Source: Nitrospirota bacterium (GTDB taxonomy: Bacteria; Nitrospinota; Nitrospinia; SZUA-224). Taken from it: DNA of 33,851 bases. The position numbers were made by a program, and so were the translations under genes. The stretch's first letter is position 1. The number at the start of each line of letters is the position of its first letter. Shown piece after piece: positions 7,874-21,013 of the stretch. The stretch spans positions 1-33,851 of the forward strand of contig QIDP01000109.1 of NCBI GenBank assembly GCA_003229375.1, in the 5' to 3' direction. The notes beneath the pieces are model-generated. The model was not told where the DNA came from, did not search any database, and saw only the letters and a program-made list of their open reading frames with translations.

Positions 7874-8850
7874 TATAAGCCCCTGGCCTTTTTACTATAT
7901 GACAACACTCCCCATATTATCCCGGCCCCTAACGAGGCTGCCCTTATTAAGAGAAAAAAGGGAGATATAAGTCCCACTACGGGATCCTGTTTGACAGCAA
8001 AAGCGGTAAAGGGTAAAAGCAAGAAGATCAATACTATTATACTAAAAAATAACAATAATGCCAAATGTGGCCAGATAGCTATTAGCAATAATGCAACTAA
8101 AGATAAATATAAAAATAGGACCTGAAGCTTTAAGGTTTGCGGGGTATAGGTATCTTTAACCATTTTGTCAGGGAATCTTTTATAAACCACCATGCGCCAA
8201 TAACCTCTCCAAAACTTGAGCCGAGCATATCTACTGATAGTGTTTGGGTGGTTCAGGTGATAGACCTTTGCTTCGGGGTTAAAAATCATTCTATAACCAA
8301 GGGTTGACATCCTGTAGGAAAGCTCTGTGTCTTCATTATTGGCTACCGGAAAGCTGGTGTCAAACCCTCCCATCTTCAGGAATATGTGCCTGCGAAACCC
8401 GGCAGAATAGGTATCCACCATGTCTATCATGCTAACCTTTTTCAGCATTTCAAACCGCTCTTCAAACTCAAGCTGAGCAAACCTGGCTACAATACTCTTT
8501 TGCCGGGTCAGGTAAGCACCTTTAACTGCCGCCACTTCTGGTTGGTCAAAGGGTTTAATCATCTCTTGAATCCAGTTGATATCCGGCACGCAGTCTGAGT
8601 CAGTAAAAAGAATAATCTCACCCTTTGCCTCCTGCACGCCTTTATTTCTGGCAGCGGCCGGTCCCCGGTTCTCCTGCCGCACATATCTTACAGCATGATT
8701 TTGGACAATGCTTCCTGTCCTGTCACCGGAGCCATCGTCCACCACAATAACCTCGTATAAATTGGCAGGATAAGATTGCCCGGCCAGGGCCTTCAAACAT
8801 TGTCCAATGGTTTCTTCAGCGTTATAAGCAGGAATAATGACAGAAATCAT
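7873..8850 (-). CDS. GT2-family glycosyltransferase with C-terminal membrane segments
   Basis: A 325-residue GT-A enzyme opening MISVIIPAYNAEETIGQCL, with the DDGS motif at 38-41, NRGPAAARNKG (61-71) and the metal-binding TDSD at 83-86. NNEDTELSYRM holds the catalytic acid. Two to three hydrophobic segments from about residue 240 (LQVLFLYLSLVALLLIAIW and LLLFFSIIVLIFLLL) place it in the inner membrane. It overlaps the radical SAM gene upstream by 4 bp (ATGA) and the next GT2 gene by 1 bp. It likely extends the same glycan; donor and acceptor are not determinable. Confidence 0.88.
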   Translation of the reverse strand: MISVIIPAYNAEETIGQCLKALAGQSYPANLYEVIVVDDGSGDRTGSIVQNHAVRYVRQENRGPAAARNKGVQEAKGEIILFTDSDCVPDINWIQEMIKPFDQPEVAAVKGAYLTRQKSIVARFAQLEFEERFEMLKKVSMIDMVDTYSAGFRRHIFLKMGGFDTSFPVANNEDTELSYRMSTLGYRMIFNPEAKVYHLNHPNTISRYARLKFWRGYWRMVVYKRFPDKMVKDTYTPQTLKLQVLFLYLSLVALLLIAIWPHLALLLFFSIIVLIFLLLPFTAFAVKQDPVVGLISPFFLLIRAASLGAGIIWGVLSYSKKARGL

Positions 8851-10322
8851 ATCTCCTTACTGCGGGCAGCCTTAATATCCGAGCCTTTGAAAAGGTATTT
8901 AATAAAGGTTCGGGCTGCCTTGAGTGTTCGGGGAATCTCATGGGGATGTGTAAACATCTGCCTCAGTTTATAGAGTATATAGCGCGGTCTTAAATAAAAC
9001 TCCCGTCTGGCATCATCGCAAAATCTGACCAGTTCTTCTGAGGACAAAGCCTCTGTCCTGATAACCGTATTGTGAAGCCCCTGAGGGGTAATCCATTTCC
9101 TGAAATCAGATGTGTTGATTAATCCCCTCTCATTATACCAGAGGTATGCCTCTGTCCCCGGATAAACCATAACCGGATAAAATTGGACAGTATCAGGATT
9201 AAGCCTCTTGGCAAGTTCAAGGGTCTCACCCAGGGTTTCTTTGGTCTCGCCGGGGAGTCCTGCCATAAAGCAGCCATGGATTATGATCCCTGCCTTCTTG
9301 GCATGGGACATAAAATTCTCCATCTCCTCCAGCTTGATCTTTTTCTTCATGTTATCCAAAACCTTCTGACTTCCACTTTCAAATCCCACGCACAGGGAGC
9401 GGCAGCCTGCTTCCTTCATTATCCTCATCGTCTCAAAATCCAGGCCCACTCTGGCATTGGCTGTCCAGGAAATCTTTATCCCCTTTTGTATTATAAGTTC
9501 GGCCATTTCCTTACACCTTTTTTTATTAACCGTCATTGTATCGTCTTCAAAAAAGATGGCCTTAGCCTGAGGAAAATGCTCCACAATATACCCTATTTCA
9601 TCTACCACATTCTCCACACTCCTGAGCCGAAAGCCCCTTCCCATCAGGGTTTGCGGATAGACGCAGAAGGTACAGGGAAATGGACAGCCTCTGCTGGTGG
9701 TAATAGTCACCATGGGATAGAGGGCATTCGGGTTAAAGTAGTTCTCTATTTTCAGGAACCTCTGGTAAACCGTGCTCACAAAGGGCAATTTATCCAGATT
9801 TTCTATATATGGCCTCCCGGGGGTGTGAATGAACCCGGTGTTCTCTCTGAATACTATACCGGGAACATCCTTTAAGTCCCCTTTTTTCTCCAAATTTCCG
9901 GCAAGGTCTAACAGGGTATATTCATATTCGTATAGTGCCACCGCGTCCACCCTTTTATCGATATTCAGGGTTTCATCAGGAAGGGCGGATACATGGGTTC
10001 CCACCAGGATAATGAAAGATTGGGGAAATTCATCTTTAAACTTTCCGGCAACTTCCACATCATTGTAAATGCTTGGTGTACTGGTATCCAGAACTATAAG
10101 GTCCGGACCGAGCTTTTTAGCCCTTTTGAAACAATAGTCTAAGTCATAACCATGGGCCGGTGCATCTATCAAATCCACCTCAAGCCCATCTTTTCCCAGA
10201 ACCCCGGTAGCATAGGCCAGCCACATAGGAAAGTAAAGTGTCCCGCTCTTGGTTACTGCCGGACTTCGCTGGGAACGGGAAAATCTTTTCAGGAACGGGG
10301 GATTGAGCAATAAAACCTTCAT
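8847..10322 (-). CDS. B12-binding-type radical SAM protein
   Basis: A 491-residue enzyme. Residues 1-150 look like the cobalamin-binding Rossmann domain (MKVLLLNPPFLKRFSR, then LIVLDTSTPSIYNDVEVA and GTHVSALPDETL), although no DxHxxG cobalamin ligand motif is visible, so B12 might bind base-off without a protein His, or not at all. The radical SAM domain follows, with the 4Fe-4S motif CPFPCTFC giving C213, C217 and C220. GCRSLCVGFESGSQKVLDNM is the usual later strand. Members methylate or rearrange unreactive carbons in lipids, cofactors and natural products. It abuts the DUF362/ferredoxin gene with no spacer and is coupled to two GT2 genes, suggesting a lipid or glycan substrate. Base composition is richer in GC than the flanking methyltransferase genes. 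Confidence 0.85.
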   Translation of the reverse strand: MKVLLLNPPFLKRFSRSQRSPAVTKSGTLYFPMWLAYATGVLGKDGLEVDLIDAPAHGYDLDYCFKRAKKLGPDLIVLDTSTPSIYNDVEVAGKFKDEFPQSFIILVGTHVSALPDETLNIDKRVDAVALYEYEYTLLDLAGNLEKKGDLKDVPGIVFRENTGFIHTPGRPYIENLDKLPFVSTVYQRFLKIENYFNPNALYPMVTITTSRGCPFPCTFCVYPQTLMGRGFRLRSVENVVDEIGYIVEHFPQAKAIFFEDDTMTVNKKRCKEMAELIIQKGIKISWTANARVGLDFETMRIMKEAGCRSLCVGFESGSQKVLDNMKKKIKLEEMENFMSHAKKAGIIIHGCFMAGLPGETKETLGETLELAKRLNPDTVQFYPVMVYPGTEAYLWYNERGLINTSDFRKWITPQGLHNTVIRTEALSSEELVRFCDDARREFYLRPRYILYKLRQMFTHPHEIPRTLKAARTFIKYLFKGSDIKAARSKEI

Positions 10323-11888: not shown

Positions 11889-13538
11889 ATGAGCAGGGAC
11901 AACACCATGAGCAGTAATTCATATAATAAATTGTTTGTCTTTGGACTTGATGGCGGCACATTTGATATAATATTACCTTTGATTGAACAGGGGAAACTTC
12001 CAAATTTTAAAAAAATACTTGATAGTGGTTGTCACTCTATTTTAAAATCGACTGTACCACCTGTTACCGCCCCGGCATGGATATCTTTTATGACCGGTAA
12101 TAGTTCTTTTAAAACAGGTGTCTTTGAATTTAGAAAGTTAAATTTATCTGACTATTCAAACTATACAACTAAACTGATGGATCTCAGTTGTGTTGAGTCC
12201 AAAACATTCATAGAAATTCTTAGCGAAAATGGGAAGAAAGTGCTCTCCTTGTTTTTACCCATGACTTATCCCCCCTTTAAAACAAATGGTATAATGCTAT
12301 CCGGATTCCCGAGACCGGAAAACAACAAATTACCTGTATATCCGCATGGATATTATGACAAAATAAAACATTTAAAGCCTGAAAAATTGATAATCAAACC
12401 AACAACCAGGAAAAAAAGATTCGCAAAAAATTTAGACATAAGAGCCAAAAAAGAGGCTGAATTGGCTCTGGAAATTATAGATTCTGAGTCATATGATTGC
12501 TGCATATTTGTCATGAGCACCATAGATCATGGAAGCCATTTTTTCTGGGACAGATGTCTTGATGATACAGATAATACTCTTCGTAAACAATACATATATG
12601 CAGATAGGGTTTTAGGGGAGATATTAAATAGATTAAATGAAAAAACAGCATTGATGATTATGTCTGATCACGGTTTTGGGCCCACACCGGGATATTTTTT
12701 TTATATAAATAAATTTTTAATAGATACCGGCTATCTTTGTTTAAAAAGAGATCTTGATGCTGCTACAGTACCTATTCTTAATAGAGCTGTTACTAAAATA
12801 AAACAGTCCATTAACCCTGTTTTATGGCAAAAGTTAAAGGACTTTGTCCCTAAAAATGTAAAAAATGGGTTATGGCAAGCGCACAAAAATTTGAATATAT
12901 ATGACTTTGAAAATACAAAATTATTTGGAGGCACCCTTTATTTAAATTATGCCTATTTCAATGTAAATTTAAAAAATAGACAAGAATACGGAATCGTAGA
13001 GAAGAGCAAATACAATAGCATGTTAGATCTGTTTTTGGATAAGCTATCTCTTGTCAAAACACCAGCCAACAAAAAAATTATTAACGATGTTGTATATAGA
13101 AAAAAAGATCACAAAGATACTGAATTACCGGATCTGATTCTGGAATTTAATGAAGACATTGAAATAAGAGATACACTTAAAAACAATTTATTTGAAAAAA
13201 GAGACAAAAAATTTTATAAATTTCCGGGCCAACATAGAAAAAACGGAATATTTATGATGAAAGGACCTGGAACAAAGAAAATAGAAATAAAAGATAGCCC
13301 ATATATATATGACTTGATGCCAACTATATTGTATTATCTTGGCTCACCAATTCCAAAAGATATTGAAGGTAAAGTTATAGAGGAAATTTTTGATAACTCG
13401 TTTTTAAACAAGCATAAAATAAAATACCTTGAAGATAATAATAATACACATAAGTATGATAGAGGTAAAGAAGATATAAAAGAATCAGAAAAAACAATGA
13501 TAGAAGAACAATTAAAAAATATGGGTTACCTTGATTAG
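11889..13538 (+). CDS. Alkaline phosphatase superfamily phosphodiesterase / nucleotide pyrophosphatase-type protein
   Basis: A 549-residue protein of the type I phosphodiesterase/NPP family. LFVFGLDGG places the first metal ligand at D21. STVPPVTAPAWISFMTGN carries the probable nucleophile T60. Further metal-site residues are in STIDHG, MSDHGFGP and the FPGQHRKNG segment. No signal peptide is evident, so it may act in the cytosol or at the inner membrane face. Members cleave phosphodiester or nucleotide-sugar bonds, and some transfer phospho-groups to glycans; this one lies at the head of the polysaccharide export genes, so a role on an activated or lipid-linked sugar is plausible. The start is ambiguous: ATG 11907, in frame, has CAGGGA 7 nt upstream. 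Codon use is very AT-rich, in sharp contrast to the next gene. Confidence 0.8.
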   Translation: MSRDNTMSSNSYNKLFVFGLDGGTFDIILPLIEQGKLPNFKKILDSGCHSILKSTVPPVTAPAWISFMTGNSSFKTGVFEFRKLNLSDYSNYTTKLMDLSCVESKTFIEILSENGKKVLSLFLPMTYPPFKTNGIMLSGFPRPENNKLPVYPHGYYDKIKHLKPEKLIIKPTTRKKRFAKNLDIRAKKEAELALEIIDSESYDCCIFVMSTIDHGSHFFWDRCLDDTDNTLRKQYIYADRVLGEILNRLNEKTALMIMSDHGFGPTPGYFFYINKFLIDTGYLCLKRDLDAATVPILNRAVTKIKQSINPVLWQKLKDFVPKNVKNGLWQAHKNLNIYDFENTKLFGGTLYLNYAYFNVNLKNRQEYGIVEKSKYNSMLDLFLDKLSLVKTPANKKIINDVVYRKKDHKDTELPDLILEFNEDIEIRDTLKNNLFEKRDKKFYKFPGQHRKNGIFMMKGPGTKKIEIKDSPYIYDLMPTILYYLGSPIPKDIEGKVIEEIFDNSFLNKHKIKYLEDNNNTHKYDRGKEDIKESEKTMIEEQLKNMGYLD

Positions 13539-13982: not shown

Positions 13983-16900
13983 ATGAGGAGAAATATGACA
14001 GTGGTAATTGGGATCCTTCTGATACTCCTGATGGCTGAGGCTAATGCTGCCCCGGGCGATGTTGCTACAATTACCACCGGATTCCAGCAGAATAGATGGC
14101 CTAATTATGACTATGCGGGATGCGCCGATGCTTATCTAACGTCTAAATACTTTGATGACAACACAGGTAGTCTTCCTGTCCTCAAAGAGAGCAGTTCGAC
14201 CAGGAATATCAGGACCATCCTCATAAAGTTTGACTTAGAAGGCAACATTCACTCTGACTCCACCATCACCTCGGCTACACTTTATCTCTATTATTATGGA
14301 CCTGCTTCCAATAGCAACAAAAGGATCTACGCCTCCAGGGTTACCTCTGACTGGGACCAAGGCACAGTGACCTATAATACTCCTCTTTCTGTTGAGGATC
14401 CCCCCTTGAGTTGGGCTGACTGGGATCTAAGTGAGGCCGGCTGGAAAGAGATAGATGTGACCGGCCTGGTTGACTATTGGTATGCTAATCCTGATGCCAA
14501 CTTCGGGATGAAGCTCACGTCAGACAGCACAGACGTTGCTCTCTTCTATTCAAGCGAGTACACCGATAATCCGAAGCTGCACCCCAAACTGACTGTCACA
14601 TACAGACCTCCTGCCTTCACTATTTCCTTTCCTGTTGAGCCGACCAGATTTTTTTCCAGCGATTGGATGATGTCCTGGCATTACCGTGAGAATGATAGTG
14701 CTATGAATGACGGTTGGGCCCAGATGGATACCACTCTAAGGGATGCCGGTTGCACATGGACCCAGCCCGCCTGGGCATGGACAGCTATCGAGAATACGCC
14801 TTCCGGCAACGCAGTTGATGGCATTGTGCATACTTATAATACTTATAATTTGAACCAACTGGCAAGACAAATTGCTTACCTTAAAGGTCTCGACTACCGG
14901 ATAGCATTATTAATTAACCCTGACTTTGCTATCTGGAATTGGGAGGATCCCTGGAAAGATAAAGTTAAGGCAGGTGATGCAGATGCCCAGATGGCCTTCT
15001 ATGATACGATGAAGAAACTTGCCACTGACTTTAGAGGAATAGTCGATGTCTGGCAGATTGACCAGGAACCAAGCGACACCACTGCCAGCGCTGGCGGCTA
15101 TGAGAATATCGAGGCCTATGCCAGATTACTGCGCGCTGGATATCATGGTGTCAAGAAAGGCGATCCTGATGCCTTTGTGATGTTTAGTGACAGTGTTTAT
15201 GACGGATGGACTGGGCAGGTGCTTGCCTACCTGGCAGAGAATTACTCGGACAAGGCTCTCTTCCCCTTCACAGACAGTCTGGCCCCCCATCTCTTCCGGA
15301 CACGGGGACCTGACCATGATACAGGATATTCTCACACCACTGCCTTTACCGGGACAATGGTTGATGCCCTGACGCTTTATCATCTGTTTGGTCGCGACTA
15401 TGGCGTTTCATGGGATAATACCACGCCTATAGGCATGGTGCAGACGCCTTACTCCACTTATGGTATTAGTGACAATGACATAGAAAATAATGTGGTTACC
15501 TTCGAGCAGCAGGCAAACTACCGGGTCCGCAAGGCCATTCTCGAGCTGACCCTGGGCTACGTATGGGCAGGCTGGTCAGAGCATCTGGCAGACTGGACAG
15601 GTGTCCAGGTTCTTGGCCTGTGGCTGTTTGATGAAGGAGAAGAACAGACCACAGCCGAGGCAACCGGAGCACAAGATCCTGACAATCCGGACATTGGTTA
15701 CGACTTGCTACTCGGGGACACCGCCAATGATGAGATTTTTGACCCTGCATGGCTGATGCCGGGCAAATACGGAAGTGCCGTGAAGTTTGCCAGGGGCGAT
15801 AATGATCGGGTTACCCGTCCATACCCCTGGATAGGTCCAAACCCGACCGGCAACAAGCTCACCGTGGAGGCCTGGATTAATCCCGGTTCCGGGATCGATA
15901 TCTCCTCTGTCAGCACGGTCGTCTCCGCTGGTAGGGCAGGTGTGAACGGCTATACCCTCGACACGAACTATCATAAGCTCCGTTTTCATGTCGGAGATAA
16001 AGTCTTTGCAATGACTGACCCGCTGATCAACACCTTTGATGTATGGCACCATGTGGCCGCTGTCTGGGACGGTGATGCCGATATGGTCACACTCTATCTC
16101 AATGGAAGAGAGACTGATACGTTCACTAATGCTGACGTTACCTATACCAATGGAGATACCCGGTTCCAGATCGGGACCCGCAGGAATATGAGGGGCTTCC
16201 CCGGTGCCATAGATGAAGTGCGCATCTCGGATGCGGCTCTAAGACCGGGACAACTCGGTTACACAGGAAGTCGTGCCTGGCGTGCCTACTGGGGCAGCGC
16301 CGGTATCATCATAAATAAAGAAGACACCGGCGGATTAGGATTAATAGATAGCACCGGGGATTCGATGGAGGACATCGAGCCGGATATCCCTTACCCGGAA
16401 CTGGAAAAAAAGGCCTGGTGGGCACTTAATACCTTAGGCGGGAACTATACGGCAAATGGCATCAAGGTCGCCGGGATACTAAAGGGGGCTGCATTCCTCA
16501 GCCGCCTCCAGCTTGATAAAGAGACCCGGCACGGCTACCGGTTCCTCAAGCCGGACAACACCATGGTCACGGTCATCTGGGATGCTGCCCCGGACCTAGA
16601 GCCATCAGGAACCAGTCAGGTAAATCTAACGAGCATAGGCATGGTTGATGTTATCAGCCGGGATGGGGATCACCTCTTTGAAAAGAGCGGTAATTTCTCC
16701 CTCTATATCGGTCCTGCGCCCATATATTTAGTCGGCGCAGCCATCACCGAACCCGACAGGGCAATGATTCGTAAGATATCTAATGATGGACTGCCGGCTC
16801 TTCAGGGTTATAGCGACGCCTACATCATAGATATTCAGAGCGAAAATGAAGCCACCGGCATTGAGGTAACCGTGCCTGATGGCTGGACATTGCCTCAAGA

Positions 16901-18365
16901 CACAGACAGTACAAAGGCCGGTTACATAACTGTAGAGCCAGGGCAGGGTGTGCCGTTTCCCATTGTGAGTATTTCCGGGGCAATGATCGGCATAAGCTTT
17001 GATCTGCTTGCCCCCATGCCGGCCGGAGGCACTCTGCGTATCTATTACGGCGATGTGCGGGAGCAGGCTATGTTACTGGACCCCGGGCTCAACGGAGTGC
17101 TTGACTATTCTACGCCAAAATTTCTCGCTCCCCCGGATAATGCTTACCGCAAACCAGCCTGGAATTCGCTTTATAATGATTTTCTGGGTTACGGATTTGA
17201 TAGTGTAGGTACAGATTCCTGGTACGATAACCGGACCTCCCGGAATAGCATCTACGCCGATGGCGCTTCATGGTCAAATAATGATGATAAAACCCGGTGG
17301 ATGTTGAAGGCCAATATAGAATATCCCTCACTCACTTATCAGGTAAAGGTCTACTTAGCCTCCGCAAATCCTAAAGGCCGTTATCTGAGACATCAGGTGG
17401 TAACCGTGAACGGACAGTCCCCGGATTATGAGGACCGCTACAGCCTTGACCGTGGCGCTCTATTGATATTTTCCGACATAGTTCCTCAAGGCAGTCTGGT
17501 CAAAGTAAGCGTCTCACCCGAATATAGTACTCTTCAAGATTCATGGGTCCGTTCGTTTTATGGTGTGGACATCTGGCCGTCAGGGGTAGGAGTTATCCCT
17601 GGAACAACGGTAGGTAAAAATGAGTTTACGGTTAAGATAGAAGGCAACCGGGTTTCGCCTGCCCCTTCAATAACTGTGGAGTCAATAGTTCCGATTGCCA
17701 TGTGGCAGTTTGATGAAGGAACCGGTCAGCGGGCAAGCGAGGCTACCGGGACACAAGATCCTAACAATCCAGACCTTGGTTATGACCTGATACTCGGGAC
17801 AAGTACCAACGTGGAGACTCAAGACCCTGTATGGGTGCCGGGCAAATACGGAAATGCCCTGGAGTTTAACAAGAACGAGAATGATCGAGTGTACCGTCAA
17901 GAGACAGGTACGGATAAATCTGCATGGGGTCCGTATCCGATCACTAACCAGCTCACTGTGGAGGCCTGGGTCAAGTTAACGGATTCGGTTAACTATACTG
18001 GAGTAATCGTCTTCAATGGATATAGTGGTTCTGCAGGGTATACCCTTTACCTGAAGCAGGGTCGCCCCTGCTTACATCTTATGGGTGTCACTTATGCGGA
18101 TGCAGGGGACGATACTGTCCCTAACGACGGCAACTGGCACCATATAGCTGGTGTGTGGGACGGTGATGCCGGGACGGTCAAGCTCTATCTGAATGGATCA
18201 GTGATCGAAGAGTTTACAGGTGCTCCAGGCAGCTATGAGGCCGGATTTGCAGATTTCCTAATCGGCACCTGCCCCGCAGGCCACGGGTTCCCAGGTGCAA
18301 TAGATGAAGTGCGCATCTGGGATAAGGCCCTAAGTCAAGGACAACTCGGTTACTATGCCCCGTAA
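13983..18365 (+). CDS. Secreted multidomain glycosidase-like protein with DNRLRE-like and two LamG modules
   Basis: A 1460-residue protein. Residues 1-23 are a signal peptide (basic start, VVIGILLILLM, cleavage near NAA-PG). About 25-208 match a DNRLRE/CBM96-type beta-sandwich (RTILIKFDLEG, SATLYLYYYG, WKEIDVTGLVDYW). About 215-540 look like a TIM-barrel hydrolase: VDVWQIDQEPSD places a candidate acid/base Glu at 362, and YVWAGWSEHLADW may end the barrel; a clear second catalytic Glu is not identified. A LamG/concanavalin-like module spans about 545-760, beta-rich sequence about 780-1235, and a second LamG about 1238-1460, ending at the last residue without anchor or sorting signal. Likely secreted to bind and cleave or trim polysaccharide. 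GC is visibly higher than in both neighbouring genes, which suggests separate origin. Start ATG 13983 follows AAGGAAAAGG. Confidence 0.8.
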   Translation: MRRNMTVVIGILLILLMAEANAAPGDVATITTGFQQNRWPNYDYAGCADAYLTSKYFDDNTGSLPVLKESSSTRNIRTILIKFDLEGNIHSDSTITSATLYLYYYGPASNSNKRIYASRVTSDWDQGTVTYNTPLSVEDPPLSWADWDLSEAGWKEIDVTGLVDYWYANPDANFGMKLTSDSTDVALFYSSEYTDNPKLHPKLTVTYRPPAFTISFPVEPTRFFSSDWMMSWHYRENDSAMNDGWAQMDTTLRDAGCTWTQPAWAWTAIENTPSGNAVDGIVHTYNTYNLNQLARQIAYLKGLDYRIALLINPDFAIWNWEDPWKDKVKAGDADAQMAFYDTMKKLATDFRGIVDVWQIDQEPSDTTASAGGYENIEAYARLLRAGYHGVKKGDPDAFVMFSDSVYDGWTGQVLAYLAENYSDKALFPFTDSLAPHLFRTRGPDHDTGYSHTTAFTGTMVDALTLYHLFGRDYGVSWDNTTPIGMVQTPYSTYGISDNDIENNVVTFEQQANYRVRKAILELTLGYVWAGWSEHLADWTGVQVLGLWLFDEGEEQTTAEATGAQDPDNPDIGYDLLLGDTANDEIFDPAWLMPGKYGSAVKFARGDNDRVTRPYPWIGPNPTGNKLTVEAWINPGSGIDISSVSTVVSAGRAGVNGYTLDTNYHKLRFHVGDKVFAMTDPLINTFDVWHHVAAVWDGDADMVTLYLNGRETDTFTNADVTYTNGDTRFQIGTRRNMRGFPGAIDEVRISDAALRPGQLGYTGSRAWRAYWGSAGIIINKEDTGGLGLIDSTGDSMEDIEPDIPYPELEKKAWWALNTLGGNYTANGIKVAGILKGAAFLSRLQLDKETRHGYRFLKPDNTMVTVIWDAAPDLEPSGTSQVNLTSIGMVDVISRDGDHLFEKSGNFSLYIGPAPIYLVGAAITEPDRAMIRKISNDGLPALQGYSDAYIIDIQSENEATGIEVTVPDGWTLPQDTDSTKAGYITVEPGQGVPFPIVSISGAMIGISFDLLAPMPAGGTLRIYYGDVREQAMLLDPGLNGVLDYSTPKFLAPPDNAYRKPAWNSLYNDFLGYGFDSVGTDSWYDNRTSRNSIYADGASWSNNDDKTRWMLKANIEYPSLTYQVKVYLASANPKGRYLRHQVVTVNGQSPDYEDRYSLDRGALLIFSDIVPQGSLVKVSVSPEYSTLQDSWVRSFYGVDIWPSGVGVIPGTTVGKNEFTVKIEGNRVSPAPSITVESIVPIAMWQFDEGTGQRASEATGTQDPNNPDLGYDLILGTSTNVETQDPVWVPGKYGNALEFNKNENDRVYRQETGTDKSAWGPYPITNQLTVEAWVKLTDSVNYTGVIVFNGYSGSAGYTLYLKQGRPCLHLMGVTYADAGDDTVPNDGNWHHIAGVWDGDAGTVKLYLNGSVIEEFTGAPGSYEAGFADFLIGTCPAGHGFPGAIDEVRIWDKALSQGQLGYYAP
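15610..16262 (+). repeat. LamG module, copy 1 of an intragenic duplication
   Basis: DNA here and at 17697-18353 aligns over the module, with near-identical blocks such as CACAAGATCCT, CCGGGCAAATACGGAA and ATAGATGAAGTGCGCATCT. Conservation at the DNA level as well as the protein level suggests a fairly recent duplication within the gene. Confidence 0.7.
17697..18353 (+). repeat. LamG module, copy 2 of an intragenic duplication
   Basis: Second copy, ending GGACAACTCGGTTAC just before the stop codon. It differs from copy 1 mainly in the middle third of the module, where the ligand-facing loops would be. Confidence 0.7.
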
Positions 18366-18402: not shown

Positions 18403-19845
18403 ATGTTAGAAACCTTTAGGGATCTTAGCAAAGCAAATCTTATACCATTTCTTATCGGGATATATGTTAGTCTTATAATAAGCCTTGATCCATTCATTAG
18501 CAATTACCTGCCTCTGAAATATCTCAAATCTATCCCATATTCATTTACTATAACAGTCTTTATATTGACTATTTGCCTATATCTTATCTATATAAATTCT
18601 GAAAAGATATGGGAAAAGATAATACCCATCCTTTTGGTCTCTCTGATTATAGGTGACCAGACAAAGGGCTTGACTGGCAAGGGCGCCGATCTTGCCGATC
18701 TTGTAGTTCTGTCAGCCTTTATTATCTGGCTTATAAAAAATTTCATGAATGAGGATAGCAGAGTAAAATGGAGTAAGTTCGATCTGCTGATTTTAGGTTT
18801 AATATTACTTGCCTTCCTCTCAGAGAGCAATACAGGACGGATCTCTTATTTCCGTCTTGCAAAAGGCCTGAAATGTTTTGGGGTGGCGTTTATTGTTGTT
18901 AAATTGATTACAACAAAGGATGATCTCTATTTCTTTATCAAATCACTAATCATAATTATCTCTGTTTCTGCAATATTAGGCATCCTTCAGGAATTATTGT
19001 ACCTTCAAACAGGTATTATTTTCCCACCTACAAAAGAGATATTCCTGGCCGTTAACACACAAGTAATAAATGGTGTTATTATGTTAAGAATATCTGCCTT
19101 CGCAGGAATCACACAAGATTTTGCAAATATACTCGCTGCAACATTATCCATTACCCTATTTCTATTATTATCACCAATCATAAGGGATCGTAAAAGATAT
19201 ACCCTCCTCCTGATTGCCTTTTTGTTAATATTTACTGCCCTATATCTTACCTTTGCAAGGGCGGCATGGCTTGCCTTTGCTGTAACTGCCTTAATAGCAC
19301 TATTTTTCAGAAGACCATCCTATTCTATTCATTTTATTATGGCATTGTTATCTATCCTTCTTTTATGTTATGTCACAGGTATATTAGATATTATTAACAA
19401 TTTTCTTTATGAGGAAATCAGTTTAATGGGAAAACTTGGACTCAGAAATGAGATGAATAAATTGGGCATTGAGGCCTCATTAGCCAGGCACCCCTTTATT
19501 GGAAGAGGAATTGAACGCTCTAATATATATATGTCTAATCCATATCGCTGGCCACCTCATAATACCTTTGTCCAGGTATTAGCTGAAATCGGTATTATTG
19601 GTTTTAGTATCTATTTGTCAATGTTATTATATTTAATCTTCAGGCTCTTCATGGTCATTATAACCGTTAAAGGAAGTAATGAGAAGGCAATTGCCACTTC
19701 CCTGTTAATGGGATTATTCACCCTTACAATTTATAGCCAGTTTGACCCGGATTTCTTGCGTTTATTCCCATGGATATATTTTGGATTAACTGAAAGTGCA
19801 ATACTTATATTGGGGGAGGAGAGGCAAAAAACCTTGCAATCATGA
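18403..19845 (+). CDS. O-antigen ligase / polymerase (WaaL/Wzy_C family) membrane protein
   Basis: A 480-residue polytopic inner-membrane protein with roughly ten to twelve hydrophobic segments. The large periplasmic loop near residues 340-390 carries ARHPFIGRGI and WPPHNTFVQVLAEIGIIGF, the Wzy_C/O-antigen ligase signature (HN followed by an EhG stretch). An Arg in YLTFARAAWLAFAV also fits the family. It joins or polymerises lipid-linked glycan at the periplasmic face. Sequence alone does not separate ligase from polymerase, but its placement just before a Wzz-type regulator favours a polymerase. It starts 37 bp after the large secreted gene, without an obvious ribosome site. Confidence 0.83.
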   Translation: MLETFRDLSKANLIPFLIGIYVSLIISLDPFISNYLPLKYLKSIPYSFTITVFILTICLYLIYINSEKIWEKIIPILLVSLIIGDQTKGLTGKGADLADLVVLSAFIIWLIKNFMNEDSRVKWSKFDLLILGLILLAFLSESNTGRISYFRLAKGLKCFGVAFIVVKLITTKDDLYFFIKSLIIIISVSAILGILQELLYLQTGIIFPPTKEIFLAVNTQVINGVIMLRISAFAGITQDFANILAATLSITLFLLLSPIIRDRKRYTLLLIAFLLIFTALYLTFARAAWLAFAVTALIALFFRRPSYSIHFIMALLSILLLCYVTGILDIINNFLYEEISLMGKLGLRNEMNKLGIEASLARHPFIGRGIERSNIYMSNPYRWPPHNTFVQVLAEIGIIGFSIYLSMLLYLIFRLFMVIITVKGSNEKAIATSLLMGLFTLTIYSQFDPDFLRLFPWIYFGLTESAILILGEERQKTLQS

Positions 19846-19863: not shown

Positions 19864-19892
19864 AACTCTGTGAACTCTGTGGTAAATTATTA
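19864..19892. repeat. Half copy of the CTCTGYGGT repeat upstream of wzz
   Basis: AACTCTGTGAACTCTGTGGT followed by AAATTATTAA. The CTCTGTG unit is doubled in this copy. A matching inverted copy lies after the two small membrane genes at 21583-21601. Confidence 0.6.
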
Positions 19893-19925
19893 AGGGACTG
19901 TAAAGTAATAACTTTTACAGTCTCT
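19893..19925 (+). promoter_or_regulatory. Perfect-stem hairpin in the leader of the Wzz-type gene
   Basis: GACTGTAAA (19896-19904) pairs with TTTACAGTC (19914-19922), and three outer pairs including one G-U extend it to 12 bp. It ends 14 nt before ATG 19940, and GAGGGG (19928-19933) lies just after it. Its function is unknown: it may protect mRNA, modulate translation or mark a repeat boundary. Confidence 0.5.
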
Positions 19926-19939
19926 AAGAGGGGAATTAA

Positions 19940-21013
19940 ATGGAAGAACGTACCTTAGCTGATTATTGGTTTGTACTCTATACGAGAAAGAAAGCAATCT
20001 ATCTTATTATTATTATTGCTATCCTTTTTGCTGTATATTTTAGTTATACATTAGAAAAGGTGTATGAGGCCACGACTGTCTTTTTTATTCCCCATGGATT
20101 CGATATCTTCTCTTTCTTTAGCGGTGAAGCAAATGAGGATATAATAAAGGGACCTCTGTTTCCAATACCCCAGCAAAATATACATGCAGCATTTGTCGGC
20201 ATCTTGAGAAGCAGGACAGTTGCACAGAAGGTACGCGACAAGTTTCCACAAAAAAGTTTAAAATCATTACTTAAAAAAGATGTAGATTTTATTGTAAGCA
20301 GTGAATATTTATTAAAGGTATATGTTAGGGACAAAGACCCTCAACTGGCAGCAGATGTAGCAAATGCCTATCCAATATCTTTTAATGAAATTCTTCAACA
20401 GTTTTCTGCCAATCCTATACTTAAGAGAAAAAACAATTTAGAAAAACAAATAAACGAGATTGAACCAAAACTTGCAGAAAGTAACAAAGGGCTGGAGAGA
20501 TTTCGAGAAGCAAACAAGACGGTCTCTTTAAGGGAGGAGATATCTCAACTTATAGAGGATAGGGCCCGGGTACAATCCAAGATTATTGATGCCAGGGCCG
20601 AAATTGTTAGCATGGAATCTTATCCGGATATTGTTACCTGGAAGAATAGGCTAATTGAATATCAAAAAGAGAAAAAGAGGATGGATGGCAGGCGATCAAA
20701 AATAACAAAGATAATCTCAAAGGAGGATGAGATAGCCCGGGAGGTCGATCGTTACAAAGAGATGCTGAAAAAACTACATATTCAACTGGAAGAAATAAAG
20801 GCACAAGAAGAACGGGAGACTCAAAATGTGGTTGTAGTTGATCGTGCCGGGCCTCCCAAAAGACCGGCTTTTCCCGTCCTCTGGATTAATGTTATTATAT
20901 CCGGTTTCTGCGGTTTAATAGGAGGGGTATTTTTCGCATTTTTTATGGATTATGTTGATAAAATTGCAAAAAAGAAAAGATTTGAAGCAATAGAAACCAG
21001 CGAAAAGATATAA
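19940..21013 (+). CDS. Wzz/GumC-type polysaccharide chain-length regulator
   Basis: A 357-residue protein with the polysaccharide co-polymerase layout. TM1 is at about 18-36 (KAIYLIIIIAILFAVYFSY), a periplasmic region with a long coiled coil spans about 150-295 (LEKQINEIEPKLAESNKGLE onward), and a PPKRPAFP proline motif precedes TM2 at about 313-336. The short C-terminal tail lacks a tyrosine-kinase domain, so this is the kinase-free type. It sets the modal length of polymer made by the adjacent Wzy-like protein. AGAGGGG at 19927-19933 is the likely ribosome site. Two small membrane proteins follow closely and may be accessory subunits. Confidence 0.85.
   Translation: MEERTLADYWFVLYTRKKAIYLIIIIAILFAVYFSYTLEKVYEATTVFFIPHGFDIFSFFSGEANEDIIKGPLFPIPQQNIHAAFVGILRSRTVAQKVRDKFPQKSLKSLLKKDVDFIVSSEYLLKVYVRDKDPQLAADVANAYPISFNEILQQFSANPILKRKNNLEKQINEIEPKLAESNKGLERFREANKTVSLREEISQLIEDRARVQSKIIDARAEIVSMESYPDIVTWKNRLIEYQKEKKRMDGRRSKITKIISKEDEIAREVDRYKEMLKKLHIQLEEIKAQEERETQNVVVVDRAGPPKRPAFPVLWINVIISGFCGLIGGVFFAFFMDYVDKIAKKKRFEAIETSEKI

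Follow-up and report, generated by a model that had tools for sequence, protein, structure and literature searches.

A secreted LamG protein with a GH39/PslG-type barrel and a substituted catalytic nucleophile

The gene at 13983–18365 encodes a secreted modular protein of 1460 residues, in which a remote GH39/PslG-type barrel of clan GH-A keeps the acid/base Glu and carries Gln at the position of the catalytic nucleophile. The protein may be described as a lectin-decorated, GH39/PslG-derived barrel with an apparently rewired active site, and we tentatively propose that it is a substrate-assisted glycosidase acting on an N-acetylhexosamine polymer. As a rule, the members of a glycoside hydrolase family share one catalytic mechanism. 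The present small, genus-restricted family, with its nucleophile lost, its acid kept and a new Asp two residues ahead of that acid, offers a clean natural test of a mechanism change or of the conversion of an enzyme into a lectin.

Modular architecture and barrel identity

In the window, that is, the whole stretch of 33,851 nucleotides that was analysed, the gene is an intact open reading frame whose ATG is preceded by the purine-rich stretch AAGAAAGGAAAAG. The frame and the order of modules described in the initial annotation were borne out (Table 1). The N-terminus, as judged by eye, resembles a signal peptide, as had been claimed. The DNRLRE-like module and the two LamG modules of that annotation were confirmed by profile searches. 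The former matched NCBIfam DNRLRE NF033679 (residues 48–206, E 1.5e-29, 103.2 bits against a curated cut-off of 34) and Pfam CBM96 PF24517 (residues 48–199, E 1.3e-17, 64.5 bits against a curated cut-off of 26). Laminin_G_3 of Pfam was found with E 3.3e-48 and 164.1 bits (curated cut-off 27.6) in two stretches, both above the cut-off, and the LamG matches at the genome level lie at 15846–16253 and 17943–18344. The conserved β-rich region between the barrel and LamG-2 contains the motifs TVEPG, RIYYGDxR and YGVDIWPS, and a part of it has weak matches in three unrelated genomes.

Table 1. Features of the gene for the 1460-residue protein and of the two genes that follow it
Feature	Position	Strand	Basis
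Whole gene, 1460-aa secreted modular protein	13983..18365	+	ORF and library searches
Signal peptide, aa 1–23 (...AEANA/AP), putative	13983..14051	+	by eye from the translation
DNRLRE/CBM96 module, aa 48–206	14124..14600	+	NCBIfam NF033679 and Pfam PF24517
GH39/PslG-type TIM barrel, β1–β8, aa 218–541	14634..15605	+	hhalign, joint profile, Foldseek
D360-Q361-E362, acid/base site	15060..15068	+	alignment of family against relatives
Switched β7 end, G484-M-V-Q487-T-P-Y490 (W, E, W in relatives)	15432..15452	+	column scan
Q487, nucleophile position	15441..15443	+	alignment; equivalent to Glu276 in PslG (PMC11912335)
LamG-1, aa 542–757	15606..16253	+	LamG match 15846–16253; missing from other copies
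Barrel end, α8 and post-barrel strands, aa 758–835	16254..16487	+	alignments, AF2 model
β-rich region of family core, conserved, aa 836–1260	16488..17762	+	alignments; no Pfam match
LamG-2, C-terminal, aa 1263–1457	17769..18353	+	LamG matches
O-antigen ligase/Wzy-like gene	18403..19845	+	Pfam PF04932
Wzz/EpsF-like chain-length gene	19940..21013	+	profile matches

No Pfam match was obtained for the barrel region of the 1460-residue protein; in four related copies, the barrel had none even with the E-value limit relaxed to 10. A profile made from the family only had PslG as its sole match in the PDB, and this match was below significance (E 0.11–0.12). With the PslG segment as the query, a family member was recovered at E 1.5e-5, together with PslG-like proteins in many other genomes. 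With six family barrels on one side and nine PslG-like barrels on the other, hhalign gave a probability of 99 and E 7.6e-18 over 323 columns. The joint profile of the family and its relatives (34 sequences) matched PslG at E 2.9e-56, followed by other GH39 structures; its E-value against the GH39 structure 5jvk was 5.2e-44, and 5jvk is also the best Foldseek match of the barrel (E 2.8e-8). A first AF2 model, built from three sequences, had a pLDDT of 41 and was set aside. In the second model, from 37 sequences (pLDDT 71, pTM 0.66), strand β4 ends just before D360 and strand β7 ends on Q487. Foldseek matches to botulinum neurotoxin and to pentraxin reflect the jelly-roll shape shared with the LamG part, not the barrel, and have no functional meaning. 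The barrel is thus a remote GH39/PslG-type domain of clan GH-A. The initial annotation had described a TIM-barrel-like domain without a glycoside hydrolase family that could be named. Homology to PslG/GH39 and the fold match establish a glycosidase-derived TIM barrel, and the region lacks a Pfam match, but its family can be named from hhalign, the joint profile and Foldseek.

Residues of the active site

The acid/base residue of PslG is Glu165 and its nucleophile is Glu276 (PMC11912335), and both catalytic columns are visible in the profile alignment of the family to PslG. The acid/base residue of the 1460-residue protein, E362 at the end of β4, is invariant in the family, and its column holds Glu in all 29 relatives from outside the genus; the acid/base Glu that had been noticed within a QEP motif is therefore kept. 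The residues that precede it are different, as the site reads W-N-E in all 29 relatives and D-Q-E in the six family barrels, so that the Asn of the NEP motif (29/29) is replaced by Gln361 (6/6). At the nucleophile position, at the end of β7, Gln487 is present in all seven family copies, whereas every one of the 29 relatives has Glu. The check for a second catalytic Glu in the barrel, proposed in the initial annotation, was run with a negative result. The absence of this residue excludes, by sequence, the classical retaining mechanism with two Glu residues. With the nucleophile lost, the barrel must either work by a different mechanism or be non-catalytic.

All barrel columns were scanned for switched positions, defined as fixed in the family and conserved to at least 80% as another residue outside it. 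Only five positions were found, namely W to D360, N to Q361, W to G484, E to Q487 and W to Y490, and all of them lie where strands β4 and β7 end. The active-site motifs align without gaps at both strands, and the family's longest stretch without variation is WQIDQEP. The substitutions look like a fixed and selected redesign of the active site and not like decay. The literature that was found contains no description of a natural Glu-to-Gln change of the nucleophile in GH39, although the yield of this search was thin and shows little.

Family distribution, module insertion and genomic setting

The host genome encodes two paralogs, C26 (L009, 1356 aa) and C155 (L010, 1106 aa), and two other genomes of the genus contribute four more copies, which gives seven copies in three genomes. 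The family forms one clade with support of 100/100 on the longest stem of the tree, and its pairwise dN/dS values are between 0.22 and 0.44. The constant core consists of the barrel and about 400 residues, and the outer modules vary from copy to copy. Across 77 genomes of the phylum, the full core had no match beyond the genus. The single extra match among 387 wider relatives (G502) is an ordinary WNEP/E barrel. Variants with D-Q-E/Q were detected outside the genus neither in the 77 phylum genomes nor among the 387 wider relatives, and there were none among 30 GH39-like matches from another class, of which 158 genomes were covered. Two scans of viral contigs and a search of plasmids returned no relatives, and the sole match in the scan of genome contigs was a LamG protein in a Nitrospinota MAG. 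In one of the copies (L024, G001:C103, positions 1–500), the 3' end of the family member runs into the translation 'RSEEHTSELQSH...', which we take to be typical of Illumina adapter read-through and thus an artefact of the contig end in that assembly.

LamG-1 (about residues 542–757) is located in the β8–α8 loop, between strand 8 and helix 8 of the barrel, and only in this copy. Since the barrel is uninterrupted in all other copies that span this point, paralogs and same-genus copies alike, LamG-1 is an insertion specific to the 1460-residue copy. It is most similar to the C-terminal LamG of a Nitrospinota-MAG protein (54%), with LamG-2 of its own protein second (45%). The GC and GC3 of the insert match the remainder of the gene, and the reading frame is intact through it. 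Tandem LamG modules also occur in two more host proteins (G000:C16:1264-2574 and G000:C171:1064-2179), so such modules are freely available for shuffling in the host genome. The sub-branch of L010:4734-8054 (G000:C155), L012 and L023 has its own Cys-containing insertion of variable length right after QEPND, in the β4–α4 loop, which makes it another example of module growth next to the active site.

With a GC of 0.509 and a GC3 of 0.532, the gene has the highest GC among 170 sampled host ORFs (mean 0.421, sd 0.034), and its codon-usage distance is at the 90th percentile; L025 and L026 read as N in this sample and add nothing to the statistics. The contrast in base composition that was pointed out initially is real, and the gene is well above the mean of the sampled ORFs. 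The direct upstream neighbour of this most GC-rich ORF, 444 nt away, is the AT-rich gene of a type I phosphodiesterase (11889–13538), whose GC of 0.311 and GC3 of 0.27 are among the lowest in the sample. A foreign origin is nevertheless unproven. The paralog C26 is the third highest of the 170 ORFs (GC 0.488) and its surroundings are normal. Because three genomes of the genus have the family and C26 is GC-rich in ordinary housekeeping surroundings, GC is not proof of import. The intergenic segment 13780–13982, as well as 19868–19893, contains short repeats that recur at 8 other places in the genome (70–92% identity).

The O-antigen-ligase/Wzy-like gene begins 37 nt 3' of the gene and, beyond the Wzz-like gene, housekeeping genes follow downstream. 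Upstream lie the phosphodiesterase, glycosyltransferases, methyltransferases and a radical SAM/B12 protein. This last protein (8847–10322) resembles HpnJ, with a score of 413 bits that falls short of the equivalog cut-off (577.6), and adjoins a DUF362/ferredoxin protein. The setting was initially called a polysaccharide export locus. The Wzy-like, Wzz-like and glycosyltransferase genes agree with the polysaccharide part of this name, but no Wza, Wzx or ABC exporter was found among the proteins scanned in the window. The broader view of a secreted protein of carbohydrate-active type, with lectin-like modules and beside polysaccharide genes, is supported. The two paralogs are located elsewhere and not beside polymer genes of such kind. 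One of them adjoins threonine-pathway genes and golvesin-type surface proteins, and the other adjoins a ThiC-like gene and two glycosyltransferase-like genes (gene identities partly by eye). As both paralogs sit away from such genes, the tie of the family to the polysaccharide locus is weak, and a link to the polymer of its neighbours is unproven.

Possible function and comparison with known systems

In the proposed substrate-assisted mechanism, E362 would still protonate the glycosidic oxygen, and the 2-acetamido group of an N-acetylhexosamine at subsite -1 would attack in place of an enzyme nucleophile. The acetamido group would be held by D360, perhaps together with Q487 and Y490, in the role that an Asp has in GH18 and Asn171 has in GH85 Endo-A. 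The CBM96 and LamG modules may keep the protein attached to its polymer, for which a surface polysaccharide is a plausible candidate, and LamG-1 has been added in a loop that borders the barrel cleft.

A serious rival ranks close behind this mechanism: the former GH39 barrel may have become a non-catalytic sugar-binder that, with its CBM96 and LamG modules, binds or organises surface polysaccharide as an adhesin or matrix protein. The loss of an essential nucleophile in every copy and the many binding modules, which come and go from copy to copy, argue for such a protein, and a conserved pocket would fit it too. However, a pure binder needs no acid/base Glu, yet this Glu lies within the longest invariant run of the family, and the changes are coordinated and fixed and not decaying. 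It is considerably less probable that the barrel acts on glycans by another non-classical route, be it with a nucleophile or base at a new position, by inversion or by transglycosylation. The family-invariant Asp three residues past the acid/base Glu (residue 365, the D of QEP(S/N)D) and the Tyr in place of Trp at 490 could serve in it, but no specific motif points to such a route, and GH39 is known as a retaining family, mechanism being mostly conserved within families (PMC11912335).

The initial annotation had suggested that the protein may trim or depolymerise the polymer of its neighbours, and a classical PslG-like retaining endoglycosidase acting on the product of the adjoining genes would be the corresponding enzyme. 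Homology to PslG is in line with it, and PslG, encoded in its own exopolysaccharide gene cluster, is a precedent for a GH39 protein in such a place (PMC11912335), to which the adjoining Wzy-like gene here may be compared. We nevertheless regard this activity as very unlikely, because the second catalytic Glu on which it depends is Gln in each copy, and neither paralog is next to polymer genes of such kind. Even less credit is given to an assembly or alignment artefact behind the Gln/Asp pattern or the LamG insertion. The draft assembly does consist of 203 contigs, but the same residues recur in seven copies from three genomes, the motifs align gap-free at both active-site strands, and the insert shares its frame and base composition with the rest of the gene.

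By comparing the family with PslG of Pseudomonas aeruginosa (GH39; PDB 4zn2, 5bx9), barrel homology is seen from end to end. The strand with the acid/base Glu is common to both, and the same QA-x-Y-x-x-R motif follows β7. On the other hand, Glu276 of PslG is Gln487 here and WNEP is DQEP, and PslG has no CBM96, no LamG, no family-specific C-terminal region and no LamG inside the barrel. Also close are 5jvk, a GH39 enzyme of Bacteroides cellulosilyticus WH2 that is the best fold match and is matched by the joint profile as well, and GH39 β-xylosidases. GH39 is a retaining family with two catalytic Glu residues (PMC11912335), and the present barrel differs from it by the missing nucleophile Glu. 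The accessory modules are shared with multimodular LamG/DNRLRE surface proteins; here, in contrast, they are add-ons, and what stays constant across the family is the barrel with its approximately 400 further residues.

The substrate-assisted mechanism finds its closest parallel in GH85. The motif W-F-I-N171-Q-E173 of GH85 Endo-A was taken from mutagenesis primers, and N171 of this enzyme orients the 2-acetamido group for attack in place of an enzyme nucleophile (PMC2646837). W-F-I-N-Q-E was also seen in a fetched GH85 gene. The family motif W-Q-I-D-Q-E similarly places the acid Glu at the strand end and an amide or acid residue two before it. In GH18, an Asp has the same spacing from the acid Glu as N171 in GH85. 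Thus, GH85, GH18 and the present family have in common the lack of an enzyme nucleophile (here Q487) and an Asp or Asn two residues before the acid Glu on β4 (here D360-x-E362). Pocket residues of Endo-A such as Y205 are not matched in the family, and the likeness to the GH85 active site would come down to three residues. Sequence homology to GH85 was not detected (hhalign probability 0.9 and E 0.063 with a one-sequence GH85 profile; no GH85 Pfam match), so the likeness would be convergent. It would mean, as a slightly more doubtful extension of our proposal, that a handful of substitutions (W to D, N to Q and E to Q) switched a GH39-type barrel of clan GH-A from an enzyme nucleophile to substrate assistance, and that an Asp/Asn-x-Glu site holding the acetamido group arose independently on a clan-A scaffold, with a lectin module in the cleft-side loop.
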